A program made the translations under genes and the position numbers. DNA of 40,247 nucleotides from an uncultured Butyrivibrio sp. (GTDB lineage: Bacteria; Bacillota; Clostridia; Lachnospirales; Lachnospiraceae), in NCBI GenBank assembly GCA_946546925.1, contig CAMNOS010000010.1, positions 1-40,247 of the forward strand, given 5' to 3'. This document shows positions 6,998 through 15,511 of the stretch, piece by piece. Position 1 is the stretch's first letter. Each line of letters opens with the position of its first letter. The notes below the pieces were generated by a model, which searched no databases, was not told the DNA's origin, and worked only from the letters and a program-made list of their open reading frames with translations.

Positions 6998-8536
6998 TCA
7001 ATACGCCCCCTTCTTTACAACTCTTGCAGCCTCTTCCTGTATGTTTCTGTCATAAGAAAGTACAGGTTCAGTATCCCTGCCACGTATCCTTCTGTCTATG
7101 TAGTTGCGGGTAATGCGGACCACAAGAGGTGTAAGCATCAGTATTCCCACAAGGTTCGGTATCATCATAAATCCGTTAAAGGTATCTGAAATGTCCCAGG
7201 CAAGCGAAGGTTCAAGGACAGCTCCAAGAACGATGATCAGTATGAACAGTACTCTGTAAAGCTTGGCCCAGAACACTCCGAAGAGGTACTCAACCACCTT
7301 GGAACCGTAGTAGGACCAGCAGACTACCGTTGTAAAGGCAAACAGTGTCACTGCCATGACTACAAAGATTTCACCCGGATATCCCAGTGTATCGCCGAAG
7401 ACCTTGGCCACCAGAGTGGCATCATCAGTTCCTGCAGCAACCGCGCCGCTCTCAAGGTCGATAGCACCTGAGCTTAAGACGACAAACGCAGTCATGGTAC
7501 AGATCACGATGGTATCAAGAAACACCTCTGCAATTCCCCACAGCCCCTGCTTGACGGGTTCTCTTGCACAGGAATTGACGTGAGCCATAACAGAGGAGCC
7601 AAGCCCCGCCTCATTGGAGAAAACACCCCTTTTGCACCCGCTTTTTATGGTGTTCATGGCCACCTGCACAGCAGTACCTGCAGCACCTCCCCGAAGTGCA
7701 TCAGGCCCCAGGGCGAATCTGAATATCGAAGCTGCAACAGCCGGGAGCATCTTAACATGAAAGATGATGACAACCAGGCACCCGGCAATATAGACAGCAG
7801 ACATCACCGGGATGATCTTTTCCGAAAAATAAGAAAGACGCCTGAATCCGCCCATGATGATAACAGCGCCTGCCAGCATTAAAGCGACGCCTATCCCCAG
7901 ATCAACCATGGATGCCCCGGCAAAGGTCCCCATGTCAATGCCCTCAAAAAACGTCGCATGGACATTTAGCGTGATCTTGTTAATCTGTCCCAGATTGCCG
8001 ATACCGAATGATGCAAATATGGTAAATACACAGAACATCACCGCCAGTACTTTCCCCAGCCTTTTCGTGCTCTTTTTTGCCCCAAGTCCGTCTTCGAGAT
8101 AATACATTGCACCACCTGACCAGGCTCCTTCCTGATTCCTTCTCCTGTAATAGATGCCAAGGACATTCTCAGAGAACTTGATCATCATTCCCAGTATGGC
8201 TGCGATCCACATCCAGAAAACCGCGCCCGGACCGCCTATGCATATGGCTGTAGACACTCCGGCAATATTGCCGGTTCCTATAGTGGAAGCCATGGCAGTG
8301 CAGAAAGCCCTGAACTGCGATATCGCGCCGGCATCGTTGATGACTCTGCCCTCGCCCTTAACACTTCCAAAGGTATTCTTCCACCAGTGCCCCCCATGTC
8401 TTATCTGAAATGCTCCCAAAGAAACCATGCAGACAAGTCCGGTTCCCAGAAGCAGTATGAGACCAAAGGTTCCCCAGACAAAAGAATTCAGCGAACTATT
8501 TACTTTTTCAACAACCCGAAATAAAGATTCGATCAT
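6998..8536 (-). CDS. Alanine/glycine:cation symporter (AGCS/AlsT family)
   Basis: Polytopic membrane protein with TGNIAGVSTAICIGGPGAVFWMW, GVFSNEAGLGSSVMAH. Start codon overlaps the upstream stop by 4 nt (ATGA, 8533-8536). Confidence 0.93.
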   Translation of the reverse strand: MIESLFRVVEKVNSSLNSFVWGTFGLILLLGTGLVCMVSLGAFQIRHGGHWWKNTFGSVKGEGRVINDAGAISQFRAFCTAMASTIGTGNIAGVSTAICIGGPGAVFWMWIAAILGMMIKFSENVLGIYYRRRNQEGAWSGGAMYYLEDGLGAKKSTKRLGKVLAVMFCVFTIFASFGIGNLGQINKITLNVHATFFEGIDMGTFAGASMVDLGIGVALMLAGAVIIMGGFRRLSYFSEKIIPVMSAVYIAGCLVVIIFHVKMLPAVAASIFRFALGPDALRGGAAGTAVQVAMNTIKSGCKRGVFSNEAGLGSSVMAHVNSCAREPVKQGLWGIAEVFLDTIVICTMTAFVVLSSGAIDLESGAVAAGTDDATLVAKVFGDTLGYPGEIFVVMAVTLFAFTTVVCWSYYGSKVVEYLFGVFWAKLYRVLFILIIVLGAVLEPSLAWDISDTFNGFMMIPNLVGILMLTPLVVRITRNYIDRRIRGRDTEPVLSYDRNIQEEAARVVKKGAY

Positions 8537-11500
8537 TCTTCATCAAGCCTCTGCAATATCCCGCTGTAATCAAAACCATCTGCCAGTTTCTTAATATCTT
8601 CATACTTCTTAAGGTGCTTATCGGGAACTGCATAATCAGACAATTCCTTCAGAGCAGCTTCTATGACATCTGAGTCCATATCATCCGCGCCTTTTGCAAC
8701 CGCCTCATAAACCCTCCTTATCAGGTCATCATCTGCAACCGGCAGGTCCTCTGCCCCGTCCCTTGCGCTGTCTTTTTCCGCATACAAAGGAGCCAGGATC
8801 TCCTTATATTCAAGGAAGTGCTCCATGCAGCTTTGATGGTGCTCTCTGATAAAGTCATAATCCCCGGTCTTGCCTGCCGTTTCCAGCTCTCTGGCCTCAT
8901 CCGATACAGACAGTGCACCGATAAGCCTTGCGGAACTCTTCAAGGCATGTACTTTTATCGTGTAGTCTTTCCAGTTCTCATTGTCATAAAATCCCTGTAT
9001 TTCCTCTGCCTTTTCGTCGATCGCTTCATAGAACAGCTTAAGCACAACGGCAAAGGACTCCGCCGAACCACTGTTTTCTATCCCTGTCTGATAGTCAATT
9101 CCCTCAATGTTCTCATACCAGGCGCCCTGTGAGGAAACCGCACCGTCTTTGGATCCTTCCGAAAGACCTCTGCCAGCGGACTGTCTGTTCTCATCTGCGC
9201 TGTCAGATGCGCCGCTGTCTCCGGTTCTGTTCATATCACGAAGTTCCGAATCGGTGACAGGGAGGATGGAGGAAATATTAAAGAACTTGTTACCTTTTAC
9301 AAAGTACAGTATTCCGAAAGCTCCGGGACCGCAGTTTGATGCAACGGCGGCGGAAGCTTTCTGGAAGATTACCCGCTCAAAATATGCAATCTTACTGATC
9401 TCTTCCTTAACCCAGAGGAGAGTTTCCTCCGGTACATCCACGTAGGTGATAAATGCCACCTCAGAGTCCGGAATGATGTCCACAGGAAAGGCCTTTCTGA
9501 TGTACTTGCGATATGCATGTTTCCTGTCACCCATCCATATGCCGCCTATCATCGACCGGTCATTGCTGAATATAATTCCGGGTCTTAGATCAAGCGCGCC
9601 CGCTATGGCATTTACCCTTCTGCTCACAAGGCCTTTTTTGGCCATGAACTCAGTGGTGTCCATTACAAAGCTGCACCTTAACCTCTTTTTCACCGACTCC
9701 AGCTCAGACACCATCTGCTCGACGGAAATGTCCTGCTGCGCCAGCTTGCACGCTATCAGTGTAAGTATGCCCATGGCACTTGATACACATTCCGAGTTTA
9801 TAACGGATACGCTTTCAAATGACCTTGATGCCTCCAGCGCTCTGTTGTAGTCCTCGCTCAGACTTGTTGAGAGAGCAATATATATCAGATGTCTTGCGTT
9901 CTTTAGATTCTTAGCAAAAAAGTCCCTGTATTCCACTACGCTTGGCGGGGAAGAAACAGCATTTTTGCCGCTCTTAATGTACCTTAAAAGTTCATCCGAC
10001 TCCATCTGGTACGTATCCTTGAACTCTCCCTCCTCCGTGATGATCTTAAACGGGAGTATCGGAAGATACGGGTTATTCACTATCTGATCGGGCATATCAC
10101 ACATACTGCTCGTGGTGATGACAAAAGGAATCCTCTTCCTGTAGCTGTCCAGAGTATCAAACTCCCTGCTCATCTGCTCGGAATTGTTCTTAAGAAGAAT
10201 CTTGTCAACTGAAATGTGGTTGATAAGCGCGTTCTCCAGCTGTTCTCCGGAAACAGGCTTTACCAGATACCCGTCAAAGCCGGAGCGCATGTAGAACTCG
10301 CGGTTTTCAGAGCCGGCATTGGCCGTGAGCACAATGACAGGTGTTGTATTGTTGAGACCTCCCGTCTGTCTGCGCAGCAGCTCAAGGCACTTTATACCGT
10401 CCATCTCGGGCATGAGGTGATCCATGAGAACAGCATCATATTTGGTACTCAGCGTCCGCTCCAGTGCCTCCTTGCCGCTCTTTACAGTATCAATACGCAT
10501 TCCAGTCTGCGACAGAAGTCTCTTTTCCACATCCAGATTGATCTCGTTGTCATCAACAATGAGCACACTTGCTTCAGGCGCAGAAAACCTGCTCTCATAG
10601 GATGATTTTCTGGCACTTCCGTAATTCTGAATATGTAGATCTCCGATTTCTGTGGCATCAGCAATGCTCTGCTTCAGGACAACGTTAAAGGTAGAGCCCT
10701 CTCCGTACACACTGTTTACTGTAATATCGCCGCCCATCAGGTTTACAAGCTGCCTGACTATACTAAGTCCAAGGCCTGTCCCTTCTATGTGACGGTTCTT
10801 TTCCTCATCCACACGCTTGAATGCATCAAAAAGATACGGAAGGGTATCATTCTTAATGCCTATTCCGGTGTCAGTGACGCTGAACCTCAGAAGAACTGTG
10901 CCCTCTTCCACGACCTCACTCTCTAAGTGAAGTCCCACCTTGCCTTCTCTTGTATATTTCACGGCGTTGTTAAGAAGGTTTATGAGTATCTGCTTTATCC
11001 TGACCTCATCGCCGTACAACACCGCAGGGACATTCGGATCGACGCTGACATCGAGCTCAAGCCCCTTCTCCTGTGCCCTTATCCATATCATGCCAACTAT
11101 CTCGGAAAGAAGCTCTGCCACGGAGTAGTCCTCCGAAACCAGGTCCATGCTTCCGGCTTCTATCTTGGAAAAATCGAGGATGTCGTTGATCAGGGCAAGA
11201 AGCATCTTACCGGAACCTGCTATACCGTTGGCATCCTTTACAATCTCCTCAGTTGCGTCAGGGTCCCTTAAGATCAGCTCGTTAAGCCCCAGTATGGAGT
11301 TGATGGGTGTCCTGATCTCATGGCTCATGCTGGAAAAGAATCTGTTCTGAGCGCGGTTGAGCTCCTCAGCCCTGTCCGCCTCTTTTTTGGCTATCATATT
11401 CTCTATCTTAAAAAGCCTGTTCTGGAAGATGACCATGACAAGGCACACTATTCCAACCAGTATCATGGATATGAAGGAGTCCACGAAGAACATGCTCCTT

Positions 11501-11967
11501 GAATGCTTAAATACCAGTTCAGGGTAGTAGTATGCAGCAAGATAACAAACCGTAGTCATAATGAAGAGAAGTACAAGCATTACCGTGCGCCATCTGCCTG
11601 ACAGAACAAGACCGGCGTAAAGAAATGCAAATATAAACCATAGGGCACCGCCGCCCTCTACACCTCCGCCGAAGAAAAATATGGCGGGGAGGATCAGAAA
11701 GATCAGCCCTATGATCACCAGCCTTACCGCTATCTCGACCCTGTTAAAATAAATCCCCACGTAGGTAAGCACGGGAACAATGATGAGAGTAGCAATGAGC
11801 GTTGCTATCTCAACAATGCTCTCGCCAAAGATGATGTCACATATCAGCGCTGTAATAACCGCCAGCGAGCTTATAAAAGTCAGCAGCACAAAGACACGGT
11901 CCGCAAAATTTCTCTTCGGATCCTTGATAAGACTGACTGTATTTTTTATGATCCTTATCAGCCTCAT
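8533..11967 (-). CDS. Membrane hybrid histidine kinase: TM region-HisKA-HATPase-REC-DegV-Hpt
   Basis: [19 protein letters not shown]-box; [31 protein letters not shown]...[13 protein letters not shown]...LVKP; DegV-like [16 protein letters not shown]...[14 protein letters not shown]...[16 protein letters not shown]...[33 protein letters not shown]...[13 protein letters not shown]; Hpt [14 protein letters not shown]. Confidence 0.9.
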
Positions 11968-14015
11968 TTGCCATCACCTCCCCCGGTCTTTCTGATCTTC
12001 GGAAGCAAACGAGCCATTACTCTTTCAAATTCATTTATGTTGATAGGCTTTCCAACAAATCCGTCAAATCCCTCTCTTATAAACATCTCTTTTGCCCCGG
12101 ATACCACATTTGCAGTCAGTGCGACAAACACGGTTCCGTGCTCGGGAACCATCCCTCTTGTCTTGAGAATTCTCATTGCCTCGACGCCATCCATCTCCGG
12201 CATCATATGATCCATGAAAATGACATCATACCGCTCCTTGAGGCACATTTCTATTGCCTGTTTTCCGCTTCCGGCTGTTTCTGTAACAATGCCGTAATCT
12301 TTGAACAGACCGCAGGCAACCACCAGGTTCATAGGCTCATCATCCACCACAAGAGCCCTTATTCCCGCAAGGTCCGGCCTCTCGACACGATCCGCAAGCT
12401 CCAAATTTCCTGCATTACTGCCCTCATTGATGACGCTGATCACAGGATAGGCATAAAGAGGTTTGGGCATGACAATCACCTTGCTGCCATCTCCTGTCTT
12501 AAAGCCCTCCGACGCAGACACCGCCACCACAACGTCGTTCGTGCTGATCTCATCAAAGAATCCGGCATTATCCAGATACTCTTCCTCACCCATAAAAATG
12601 TATTTAACACTGAGCTTTTCCATAAGGCTCTTAACTTCGCCTATACTGTCAGCCTGATACAGCGGCACACGCAATCCCGCAGCCAGGTTTAAAGCCATGG
12701 TCCTGTAAAAATCGCGAAGCTTCGGAATCTTGTACTTATCAGGTCTTACATGGAAAAGGATATCGCCATCACAAAAGCTCCTGAGCTTAAGGCACGGCGT
12801 GGAGTCAACCACCCTCTGCGGTATCGTGATCTTCACAACAGTTCCTTCACCTCTTGTACTCTCAAGTTTTACAAAGCCTCCCATACTGTGGACAAAGCCG
12901 TATACTATTGAAAGCCCAAGACCTACGCCTCCGGAACTTCTGTCCCTTCTTTTGTTGGCCTGATACAGCCCGAGAGAGGCCATATAGATGTCCTTGCGGC
13001 TCATTCCGCTGCCGGTATCCTTAACTTCAATGCACAGATTCACTCCGTAGTCCTTATTCTCGGTATAGACCCTTAAAAGTATTCCTCCGTGTCTGGTGAA
13101 TTTAACTGCGTTGGAAAGGACATGTCTGAATATCTTATGTATCTTTTTTATATCGCCTCTCATCACAGAGGGGACTGCCGCGTCAATATCTACCACAAGC
13201 TCAAGCTCGTCATTGTCGTGATTCATCCGGAAGCTTTTTACCACGTCCCTGATGATCCTGGTGCTTGAATAATCCTCTTCCTCCAGGAAAACATCTCCCG
13301 ACTTGACCTCAGTGTAATCCTGTATATCATCTATCTGTCCGGTAAGCCTTAGGCCCGCCTCTTTTATCGCATATGCCTCGTCGAACTGTCCCTTCTTTAT
13401 CAGAAGATCAGACATTCCGCTCACCACATTGACCGGAGTTCGCAGCTCATGCGAAATATTTGAGAGGAAATCATCCACGTTATTGGCATTGGCTTCAAGG
13501 AGTCTGTCTTTTTCCTTCGCAGACTCCATCAGCTCCCTTCTTATCTGTATTACTCTTATGCTTGAGAGATAGATAAAGAACATGACGATCACATGCAGAA
13601 TGATTCTTGAAACAGACAGACGGTCAGACCACAGATTGTCTTTCCGATGAATATAAAAGAGCTGGACAATGAGTATTACATAGTACTCCAGCATAAACAG
13701 ATTCATCATGTAAATATGATCAAGGAATGAAAACGCAAAAAGAGCCAGTGCCACTATCGCTACCGAGTCAAAAAGGCTGGTGGCGTGGATTCCATGGAAA
13801 AGAACCGTGAACATGGTAAATACACAGTAGTATACTTCCCTTATATCCTCGGAGGGACTTCCGGTGATGTGCATGATCCAGATAGATACCGTTCCAATGA
13901 TGATAAGTGGTGGCACCCAGAATTCCCATCCCATAAGAATGCTTTCTATTATAAGTCCCAAACACGAAAGACTTATAAGCGTGATAATAAACTGGTTTAT
14001 TTTCGATCTTTCCAT
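11964..14015 (-). CDS. Membrane hybrid histidine kinase with degenerate receiver-like segment and C-terminal intact REC
   Basis: TM N-terminus; FLSNISHELRTPVNVVSGMSDLL; GVGLGLSIVYGFVHSMGG; C-terminal REC ALVVDDEPMNLVVACG...VIFMDHMMPEMDGVEAM...GFVGKP. ATGA overlap with the next gene at 11964-11967. Confidence 0.93.
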   Translation of the reverse strand: MERSKINQFIITLISLSCLGLIIESILMGWEFWVPPLIIIGTVSIWIMHITGSPSEDIREVYYCVFTMFTVLFHGIHATSLFDSVAIVALALFAFSFLDHIYMMNLFMLEYYVILIVQLFYIHRKDNLWSDRLSVSRIILHVIVMFFIYLSSIRVIQIRRELMESAKEKDRLLEANANNVDDFLSNISHELRTPVNVVSGMSDLLIKKGQFDEAYAIKEAGLRLTGQIDDIQDYTEVKSGDVFLEEEDYSSTRIIRDVVKSFRMNHDNDELELVVDIDAAVPSVMRGDIKKIHKIFRHVLSNAVKFTRHGGILLRVYTENKDYGVNLCIEVKDTGSGMSRKDIYMASLGLYQANKRRDRSSGGVGLGLSIVYGFVHSMGGFVKLESTRGEGTVVKITIPQRVVDSTPCLKLRSFCDGDILFHVRPDKYKIPKLRDFYRTMALNLAAGLRVPLYQADSIGEVKSLMEKLSVKYIFMGEEEYLDNAGFFDEISTNDVVVAVSASEGFKTGDGSKVIVMPKPLYAYPVISVINEGSNAGNLELADRVERPDLAGIRALVVDDEPMNLVVACGLFKDYGIVTETAGSGKQAIEMCLKERYDVIFMDHMMPEMDGVEAMRILKTRGMVPEHGTVFVALTANVVSGAKEMFIREGFDGFVGKPININEFERVMARLLPKIRKTGGGDGK

Positions 14016-14058
14016 GCGTGCTCCTTATGACAGTTAAGGCGAAACTATCTTCCCGGCA

Positions 14059-15384
14059 TCAGCACTCGTCCATGACGTATTCCACTTCGCACCATTCAGA
14101 TTCCGGACAGTTCTTCCACTCTTCCATAATACGGTTTACAACTCCGTCAATGTTTGTCTCATCCAGCATTGACAGTACCGCCAGATATTCATTGGCTTTG
14201 TTCTTCATAACGATATCGCTCCTGCTGAGGTTCTTTTTCAGATGCTCGCCGAAGGCGTTCATTATGTTGTCCAAAGACACCTCGTTCTCATTTTGAGGCG
14301 ACAGCAGGAACAAAACCTTCATGGCCTTGCAGCCATACTTTTTGTTGAACCTGATGAGAAAGTGATATACAGCCGAAAAAGACTCAATGCCAAGCACAAG
14401 GGCCTGTCTGCCCTCGTTCCTCTCCTCAAGGATCTTGGATATGCGCTCCATTTCTCCAACGGCCGAAAGCCCGTCCTCTTCTGATGTTTTCTCTCCGCTA
14501 TATACACAGCAGCAGTGCTTTCCGTTTTCTTTTGCTTTGTACAAAGACTCATCTGCAAGCCCAAACAGATCCTCATATACCCTGCCGTATTCGGGAACCA
14601 TTACAGCTCCCGCAGATATACCAAGGGGAACACCATGGTCTGCTCCCATGAGCCTTATGGCCATCTCCGCGAGCTGGTCATTGAGGCGCGATGTCAGAAG
14701 ACATGCAGCATCCTCTTCCTCCATTCCTGTCAGAAAAGCCAGGAACTCATCTCCTCCGATCCTGCATACCAGGTCCACGTTTCGGGTATTGTTCCTCATA
14801 ATGTCAGCAAATGCCACAAGAACATTGTCTCCCATCTCGTGTCCAAACAGATCATTGACCAGTTTAAAATTATCCAGGTCAAGAATCGTAAGAGCTCCGT
14901 TCATCCTGCTGCACATGTCAGTGACCTTCTCAATGCCGCTGGCCTTATTGAGAAGTCCTGTAAGCTTATCAATAGTCGCATTTTCCGTGAGTATTTCTAT
15001 TTTTCTGCTGTTCTGTATTGTGTTCTGTATACGCCTTATAAGCAGATCTTTGTTGAAGGGTTTGTGGATATAGTCCGAGGCTCCAACCCCTAGCCCCCGA
15101 TGCTCCGTCTCGTCGTCAGTATCCCCCGTGAGGAAGATGACCGGAGTCTCAAGTCTTCCCATGGCACTCTCCTGCCTGCGCAGTGCATCCAGAGTCTCAA
15201 AGCCATCCATCTCGGGCATCACAACGTCAAGAAGTATCAGATCCGGATTATTTTTCTCCATAAATCGGAGCAGATCCGGGCCAGACCTAAGGCAGCTTAT
15301 CTTTAAATCTTCAGAACCAAGAAGAGTCTTGGCACTTGTAAGGCTCAGTACTTCATCATCAACAACAACAATCCAGTTACCCAC
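14059..15384 (-). CDS. Response regulator with diguanylate cyclase domain (REC-GGDEF) plus degenerate GGDEF-like C-terminal domain
   Basis: REC WIVVVDDEVLSL...LILLDVVMPEMDG...YIHKPF; GGDEF domain LTGLLNKASG...DLDNFKLVNDLFGHEMGD...RNVDLVCRIGGDEFLAF with RxxD I-site spacing; C-terminal ~140 aa lacks the GGDEF motif. Confidence 0.93.
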   Translation of the reverse strand: MGNWIVVVDDEVLSLTSAKTLLGSEDLKISCLRSGPDLLRFMEKNNPDLILLDVVMPEMDGFETLDALRRQESAMGRLETPVIFLTGDTDDETEHRGLGVGASDYIHKPFNKDLLIRRIQNTIQNSRKIEILTENATIDKLTGLLNKASGIEKVTDMCSRMNGALTILDLDNFKLVNDLFGHEMGDNVLVAFADIMRNNTRNVDLVCRIGGDEFLAFLTGMEEEDAACLLTSRLNDQLAEMAIRLMGADHGVPLGISAGAVMVPEYGRVYEDLFGLADESLYKAKENGKHCCCVYSGEKTSEEDGLSAVGEMERISKILEERNEGRQALVLGIESFSAVYHFLIRFNKKYGCKAMKVLFLLSPQNENEVSLDNIMNAFGEHLKKNLSRSDIVMKNKANEYLAVLSMLDETNIDGVVNRIMEEWKNCPESEWCEVEYVMDEC

Positions 15385-15511
15385 CTAAGATCATCCTCAC
15401 TCAAATCAACAAACAATTGGCAATAAATATACTTAATATCATAATATCATGTAAAACTGTACCCCCACAACAGGCATATAATAAAGCTGTCTTCAATATG
15501 TGCGGTCGTTG

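Follow-up and report, generated by a model that had tools for sequence, protein, structure and literature searches.

A conserved hybrid kinase pair with one Hpt domain and a fused DegV domain in a candidate c-di-GMP signalling cassette of Lachnospiraceae

Four co-directional genes in an uncultured Butyrivibrio sp. encode a diguanylate cyclase (DGC), two hybrid histidine kinases (HK2 and HK1) and a Na+:alanine/glycine symporter of the AGCS family, and the question that they raise is whether they form a single signalling system and, if so, what it senses, what it controls and which of the four belong to its core. The window analyzed here is the whole stretch of 40,247 nucleotides in which they lie (contig CAMNOS010000010.1, positions 1 to 40,247). 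An initial annotation had proposed an undescribed module in which the kinases feed the DGC, lipid or amino-acid/sodium status is the input and the symporter is translationally coupled to HK1. The four open reading frames are present as described there, all on the minus strand and with the claimed domain content matched by Pfam (NCBIfam concurs on agcS, GGDEF and DegV), and both claimed ATGA overlaps are found in the sequence (Table 1). The DGC and HK2 are 43 bp apart. Promoter and terminator scans of the window gave total sites not above those of shuffles, only the site upstream of the DGC being informative, and an Rfam scan of the window gave zero matches. The downstream MutS2 gene was considered as a cluster member and rejected because it is not among the conserved neighbors of the HK2-HK1 pair. 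As judged by sequence comparison, the arrangement of the cluster exceeds chance.

Table 1. Features of the cluster and its surroundings, in positions of the window
Feature	Position	Strand	Basis or remark
AGCS Na+:alanine/glycine symporter, accessory member	6998..8536	-	Pfam Na_Ala_symp, E=1.5e-120
HK1/AGCS ATGA overlap, 4 nt	8533..8536	-	Common to the window and L007 only
HK1 membrane hybrid histidine kinase, hydrophobic N-terminus	8533..11967	-	Pfam HisKA, HATPase_c, REC, DegV, Hpt
HK1 Hpt, after DegV, sole Hpt of the kinase pair	8860..9045	-	Pfam, E=1e-5
HK1 DegV/FakB-fold domain, fused between REC and Hpt	9301..10125	-	Pfam, AlphaFold2, Foldseek
HK1 kinase domains	HisKA 11152-11352, HATPase_c 10669-11013, REC 10225-10566	-	Pfam
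HK2/HK1 ATGA overlap, 4 nt	11964..11967	-	Same overlap in 50/70 loci
HK2 membrane hybrid histidine kinase	11964..14015	-	Pfam HisKA (13299-13475), HATPase_c (12816-13157), C-terminal REC (12024-12353)
Gap between DGC and HK2	14016..14058	-	Alignment with L007
DGC, REC (15028-15372) and GGDEF (14515-14979) response regulator	14059..15384	-	Pfam
DGC C-terminal alpha/beta domain	14062-14463	-	Resembles a degenerate GGDEF; conserved in homologues
Promoter-like site 5' of DGC	15426..15455	-	10/12 consensus matches, consensus scan only

When the neighborhood of HK1 is compared across Lachnospiraceae, it is apparent that the two kinases travel together. A scan of species genomes yielded 80 loci with HK1 homologues, nearly all from Lachnospiraceae or Butyrivibrio and many from rumen samples, and in all 70 loci with at least 2.5 kb of upstream sequence the gene immediately before HK1, on the same strand, encodes HK2; these loci share descent, and their counts are therefore not independent. 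The expected conservation of gene order was thus borne out for the pair, with the 4-nt overlap recurring as given in Table 1. In a sample of 250 Lachnospiraceae genomes, drawn at nearly one per genus, 34 encode HK1-type kinases, that is hybrid kinases to which a DegV domain is fused. Together the two proteins carry the HisKA histidine, the HATPase_c boxes, the receiver aspartate and the Hpt histidine of a phosphorelay, the last on one protein only. The active-site residues H216, D516 and H1007 of HK1 are invariant in 81 homologues, all of the window type, and those of HK2 are invariant in 91, mostly of the window type with the form from other genera included. On the evidence of gene order and sequence, the cassette is best described as a Lachnospiraceae signalling unit with a core older than the four-gene form.

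The genome of the window has a second HK2-HK1 pair (L107; G000:C23:1-12000), with an HK1 about 47% identical, downstream of a weakly matching GGDEF membrane protein. Two sensors that neighbor the pair at other loci (L047:4594-6936 and L023:4841-7498) have HisKA, REC and Hpt domains with no detectable HATPase_c, and may be phosphotransfer-only proteins; hybrid kinases adjoining the pair at L010:6280-9429 and L023:4841-7498 have 4Fe-4S and Fe-hydrogenase large-subunit C-terminal domains, and could possibly be redox or hydrogen sensors feeding the same relay. A DUF6976 protein also recurs beside the pair (L040:15363-16328 and 13 other loci), often between HK1 and the symporter.

The distribution of the Hpt domain bears on whether the two kinases work together. 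With a custom Hpt HMM, one of several domain profiles made from the sequences of the present analysis, no Hpt was found in the HK2 of the window, and among intact pairs the domain was on HK1 only in 76, on HK2 only in 16, on both in none and on neither in one, so that exactly one partner carries it in 92 of 93 pairs. The sole pair with neither (L068) has an HK1 interrupted by a frameshift, its Hpt falling in the following open reading frame, and is therefore taken as a broken gene; the short HK1 proteins of L055 and L068 were considered as real exceptions and set aside, being explained by a contig end and by this frameshift, respectively. A further sampling of 17 pairs, which includes at least one repeat (L176 is the same contig as L016), gave 6 HK1-only, 11 HK2-only and no exception. 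In most other genera HK1 is of a short type of about 890-900 residues that ends after DegV, and HK2 is longer; of four long HK2 proteins run against Pfam, three have an Hpt, and the short HK1 examined in this way ends in DegV with no Hpt.

When a tree is built from the kinase-DegV part, sequences of the window type form one group nested among the others, with two truncated rows apart, and the switch of the Hpt was therefore probably a single evolutionary event, for which reason the 76 and 16 pairs are not independent observations. The HK1 Hpt is closer to the Hpts of neighboring sensor kinases (median 116 bits) than to that of the long HK2 (66 bits), so that an intragenic shift of one Hpt from HK2 to HK1 is not supported; the sequences suggest instead that HK1 gained the Hpt of a paralogue while HK2 lost its own. 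Most simply read, the pattern means that a single Hpt has to serve both kinases, which fits a shared relay. It could be argued that HK1 and HK2 are independent kinases that merely adjoin, with partners of their own, and that the exclusive Hpt is a lineage accident, as the relocation occurred once and the HK1 Hpt resembles those of other kinases. We consider this quite improbable: it would need coordinated loss of the Hpt by HK2 and gain by HK1 without any link between them, the unbroken adjacency holds at 30-75% identity, and the active residues are all retained in both kinases.

If the pair is a single relay, the DGC is a candidate for its output in the window. This protein has the features of a receiver-type diguanylate cyclase, namely an intact receiver and GGDEF active site and an I-site whose RxxD lies five residues before the GGDEF (RxxD-x5-GGDEF); the GGDEF and the phospho-acceptor aspartate are invariant in an alignment of 38 DGC homologues. 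Its AlphaFold2 model has a pLDDT of 86, and the nearest solved structures are WspR, PleD and DgcR, which share its REC-GGDEF architecture with an I-site. Unlike these, the DGC has an additional C-terminal degenerate GGDEF-like domain, for which Pfam returned no family and just a weak GGDEF match at E=0.089, and, judged from genomic context, it would be fed by the DegV kinase pair.

In pairs of the short type, the directly upstream gene encodes a c-di-GMP enzyme in 8 of 18 cases, compared with 1 of 102 at other flanking offsets (Fisher p 4e-7). Six of the eight are REC-HD-GYP proteins, one is REC-GGDEF-REC (L156) and one combines REC-GGDEF-REC-HD-GYP in a single protein (L154). The receivers of these regulators match that of the DGC at 38-52% identity, compared with 27% for an OmpR-type receiver and 31-33% for c2, the small gene described below. 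Elsewhere in the genome of the window, which has 59 GGDEF and three PilZ matches, related HK-REC-Hpt kinases adjoin a 50%-identical DGC, a REC-HD-GYP protein or an HD-GYP protein, or are fused to EAL. Many cassettes have no adjoining c-di-GMP enzyme, and some have a REC-only or methyl-accepting chemotaxis protein (MCP) gene upstream. Because the gene immediately before the pair in other genera is often REC-HD-GYP, REC-GGDEF or a fusion of both, c-di-GMP turnover is probably the output, though not a universal one, and it is the best supported output for the cassette of the window. The proposal that two hybrid kinases and a c-di-GMP regulator fed by them make up one module thus gains comparative support, although that output is not found in every cassette. 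Neighboring kinases with Hpt domains of their own could also feed the DGC.

Other contexts were also observed. Three short-type pairs (L158, L160 and L162) have an MCP gene before them, Pfam-confirmed for L160. In one group from a single genus (L168-L172) the pair lies between pyrF/pyrE-like and purE/purM/purN/purD-like genes of pyrimidine and purine synthesis, named from the protein starts read in L168 and L171, and has no adjoining c-di-GMP enzyme. The genome of the window also encodes an EAL domain fused to HisKA-HATPase-REC-Hpt (L110:3823-7620).

The closest relative, L007, has a further gene, c2, between the DGC and HK2 (L007:8705-9499) that encodes a pseudoREC-REC protein and that the window lacks. 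The gap at this place in the window keeps, at 14021-14035, AACTGTCATAAGGAG, which is 15 nt identical to the 3' end and ribosome-binding site of the L007 c2, and the gap is a probable scar of a recently lost c2. No small gene accompanies the pair in window-type loci more often than c2, which is found within 6 kb in 27 of 37 well-flanked loci, and we therefore regard the four-gene form of the window as a reduced version. This raises the alternative that the pair senses fatty acids or lipids and signals mainly to a stand-alone receiver protein, either c2-type or CheY-like, with the DGC an optional downstream or parallel element. A DGC lies within 6 kb in just 12 of the same 37 loci, the receiver residues of c2 are all kept in 60-61 of 61 sequences, and REC-only genes lie upstream of the pair in several genera. 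We nevertheless consider this alternative unlikely. The window dropped c2 and retains the DGC, c2 also adjoins kinases without DegV in the genome of the window, and, having no output domain, it may itself relay to c-di-GMP enzymes.

A further part of the preferred relay is the DegV domain of HK1. It scores above the Pfam cut-off for DegV, its AlphaFold2 model is confident (pLDDT 92.5, pTM 0.90), and the best Foldseek matches of this model are lipid-binding DegV/FakB structures, several of them fatty-acid-bound, at a TM of about 0.8, with palmitate- and oleate-bound structures among those so matched. In FakB1, Thr62, Ser95, Ser171 and His270 form a hydrogen-bond network with the carboxylate; Arg173 and Arg205 are described as completely conserved, Arg205 being key to FakA binding and Arg173 required in catalysis (PMC8892158). 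In FakB2 numbering, the domain of the window has Ser for Thr61, keeps Ser93, has Leu for Arg170 and Asn for His266, and has lost Arg202. Aligned through FakB2, 86 kinase-fused DegVs keep the carboxylate-contacting hydroxyls (Ser/Thr at the Thr62 position in 80, Ser at the Ser95 position in 71), whereas the equivalent of Arg205 is present in none, that of Arg173 in 19 and that of His270 in two, Asn replacing this histidine in 79. Stand-alone DegVs encoded in the genome of the window served as a control: all four have both arginines, and three have the histidine. A FakA-like protein is also encoded there.

The fused domain thus shares with FakB its fold and the hydroxyls that hold the carboxylate, and differs from it in being built into a sensor kinase, in lacking the arginine for FakA docking and membrane encounter in all homologues and, in most of them, the catalytic arginine as well. 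Because the hydroxyls are kept, the FakA-docking arginine is lost and the histidine is changed to Asn, the domain resembles a captured sensor; the residue losses argue against canonical FakA partnering, and we infer that it binds a ligand for sensing and has ceased to act with FakA. The likeliest candidate for that ligand is a fatty acid, although the change from His to Asn in the carboxylate network means that the ligand may be something else. The suggested link to lipid status is thus supported by the FakB-type fold and by residues that fit ligand binding without FakA, with ligand binding itself a prediction. That the domain is instead a ligand-free structural spacer between REC and Hpt seems very improbable to us: the losses at the two arginines and the histidine would fit such a role, but the older forms of the protein end in DegV, which cannot be a spacer there, and besides the hydroxyls an N-C-G signature is 91-92% conserved in the fused domains.

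The symporter is an ordinary AGCS protein, related to AgcS (6CSE) and scoring 387 bits against TIGR00835 (curated cut-off 272.65), and is the only AGCS found in the genome of the window, which is 81% complete. Of 58 window-type loci, 31 have an AGCS homologue no more than 3 kb downstream. In a set of 41 relatives, six AGCS proteins have an identity of 64% or more; five of them, counting that of the window, are encoded within 1.3 kb of HK1, and the sixth is on an 8.2-kb contig next to a DGC. Of 18 other AGCS proteins, none is encoded within 5 kb of HK1. Because this clade is tied to HK1, the symporter stays a plausible accessory. The notion of a dedicated co-sensor, coupled to HK1 in translation, with which the module measures amino acid or sodium flux, could call on this association and on the transporter-kinase precedent of CbrA (PMC7096432), yet it appears highly unlikely: AGCS is absent from all short-type cassettes of other genera sampled and from about half of the long-type loci, and its history on the HK1 tree takes 13 gains or losses. 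Nor is the coupling to HK1 conserved, because the 4-nt overlap has the limited distribution given in Table 1 and most other loci have spacings of 1-36 nt. The symporter was accordingly rejected as a core co-sensor; as judged from its distribution it is a recurrent, lineage-specific accessory rather than part of the core. In the SLC5-STAC kinases CbrA and CrbS (PMC7096432, PMC9100948) a sodium symporter is likewise associated with a histidine kinase, but there an SLC5 transporter is fused to the kinase via a STAC domain, whereas HK1 has no transporter domain and the symporter here is of the AGCS family, encoded by a separate gene, accessory only and without STAC.

Taken together, we think it reasonably probable that the locus is a three-gene phosphorelay cassette, comprising a c-di-GMP response regulator, HK2 and HK1, with an accessory symporter. 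In this model, whose functional steps are read from sequence, structure prediction and genomic context, HK2 and HK1 would be obligate partners that share a single Hpt, here on HK1. Signals at the membrane regions of both kinases would set autophosphorylation, as would an acyl-type ligand, for which a free fatty acid is the best candidate, bound in the DegV domain of HK1. Phosphate would then pass from histidine to the receiver aspartate of either kinase, to His1007 in the HK1 Hpt and on to the aspartate of the DGC receiver, the phosphorylation of which would change c-di-GMP, in whichever direction. The symporter would be co-transcribed and would supply or report amino acid or Na+ uptake from outside the core.

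Among known systems, the cassette would work most like RpfC/RpfG, the DSF system of Xanthomonas, in which a membrane hybrid kinase that has REC and HPt domains is activated by a fatty acid and in turn feeds a receiver-type c-di-GMP enzyme (PMC5391125). RpfG is a REC-HD-GYP protein, as are the regulators upstream of the pair in several genera here. The cassette of the window is not a member of that system: its output is a REC-GGDEF cyclase, no RpfF-like synthase was noted in the cluster, and RpfC is a single kinase that senses DSF via its membrane input region and has no DegV, whereas here two kinases would share one Hpt. The literature searched, which included no preprints and few subscription papers, contained no DegV-fused kinase and nothing on DegV with two-component systems in Lachnospiraceae, and the view that this system is undescribed agrees with the absence of any description there. 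That literature also has almost nothing on c-di-GMP control in Lachnospiraceae: of six papers that name both Butyrivibrio and c-di-GMP, none concerns regulation in this group as judged by title or abstract.

The exclusive placement of the Hpt offers a natural experiment on the division of labor between paired hybrid kinases. We tentatively propose that HK1 may represent a new class of cytoplasmic fatty-acid sensor kinase, in which a FakB-type domain was captured by an obligate two-kinase complex with one movable Hpt that drives interchangeable c-di-GMP synthases or phosphodiesterases across Lachnospiraceae, possibly coupling fatty-acid stress to lifestyle in rumen butyrivibrios. Such a sensor would have an obvious ecological use, because polyunsaturated fatty acids are toxic to Butyrivibrio fibrisolvens (PMC2836310). 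If the model is true, Lachnospiraceae that abound in gut and rumen would have a conserved pathway by which an acyl-type ligand acts on c-di-GMP.
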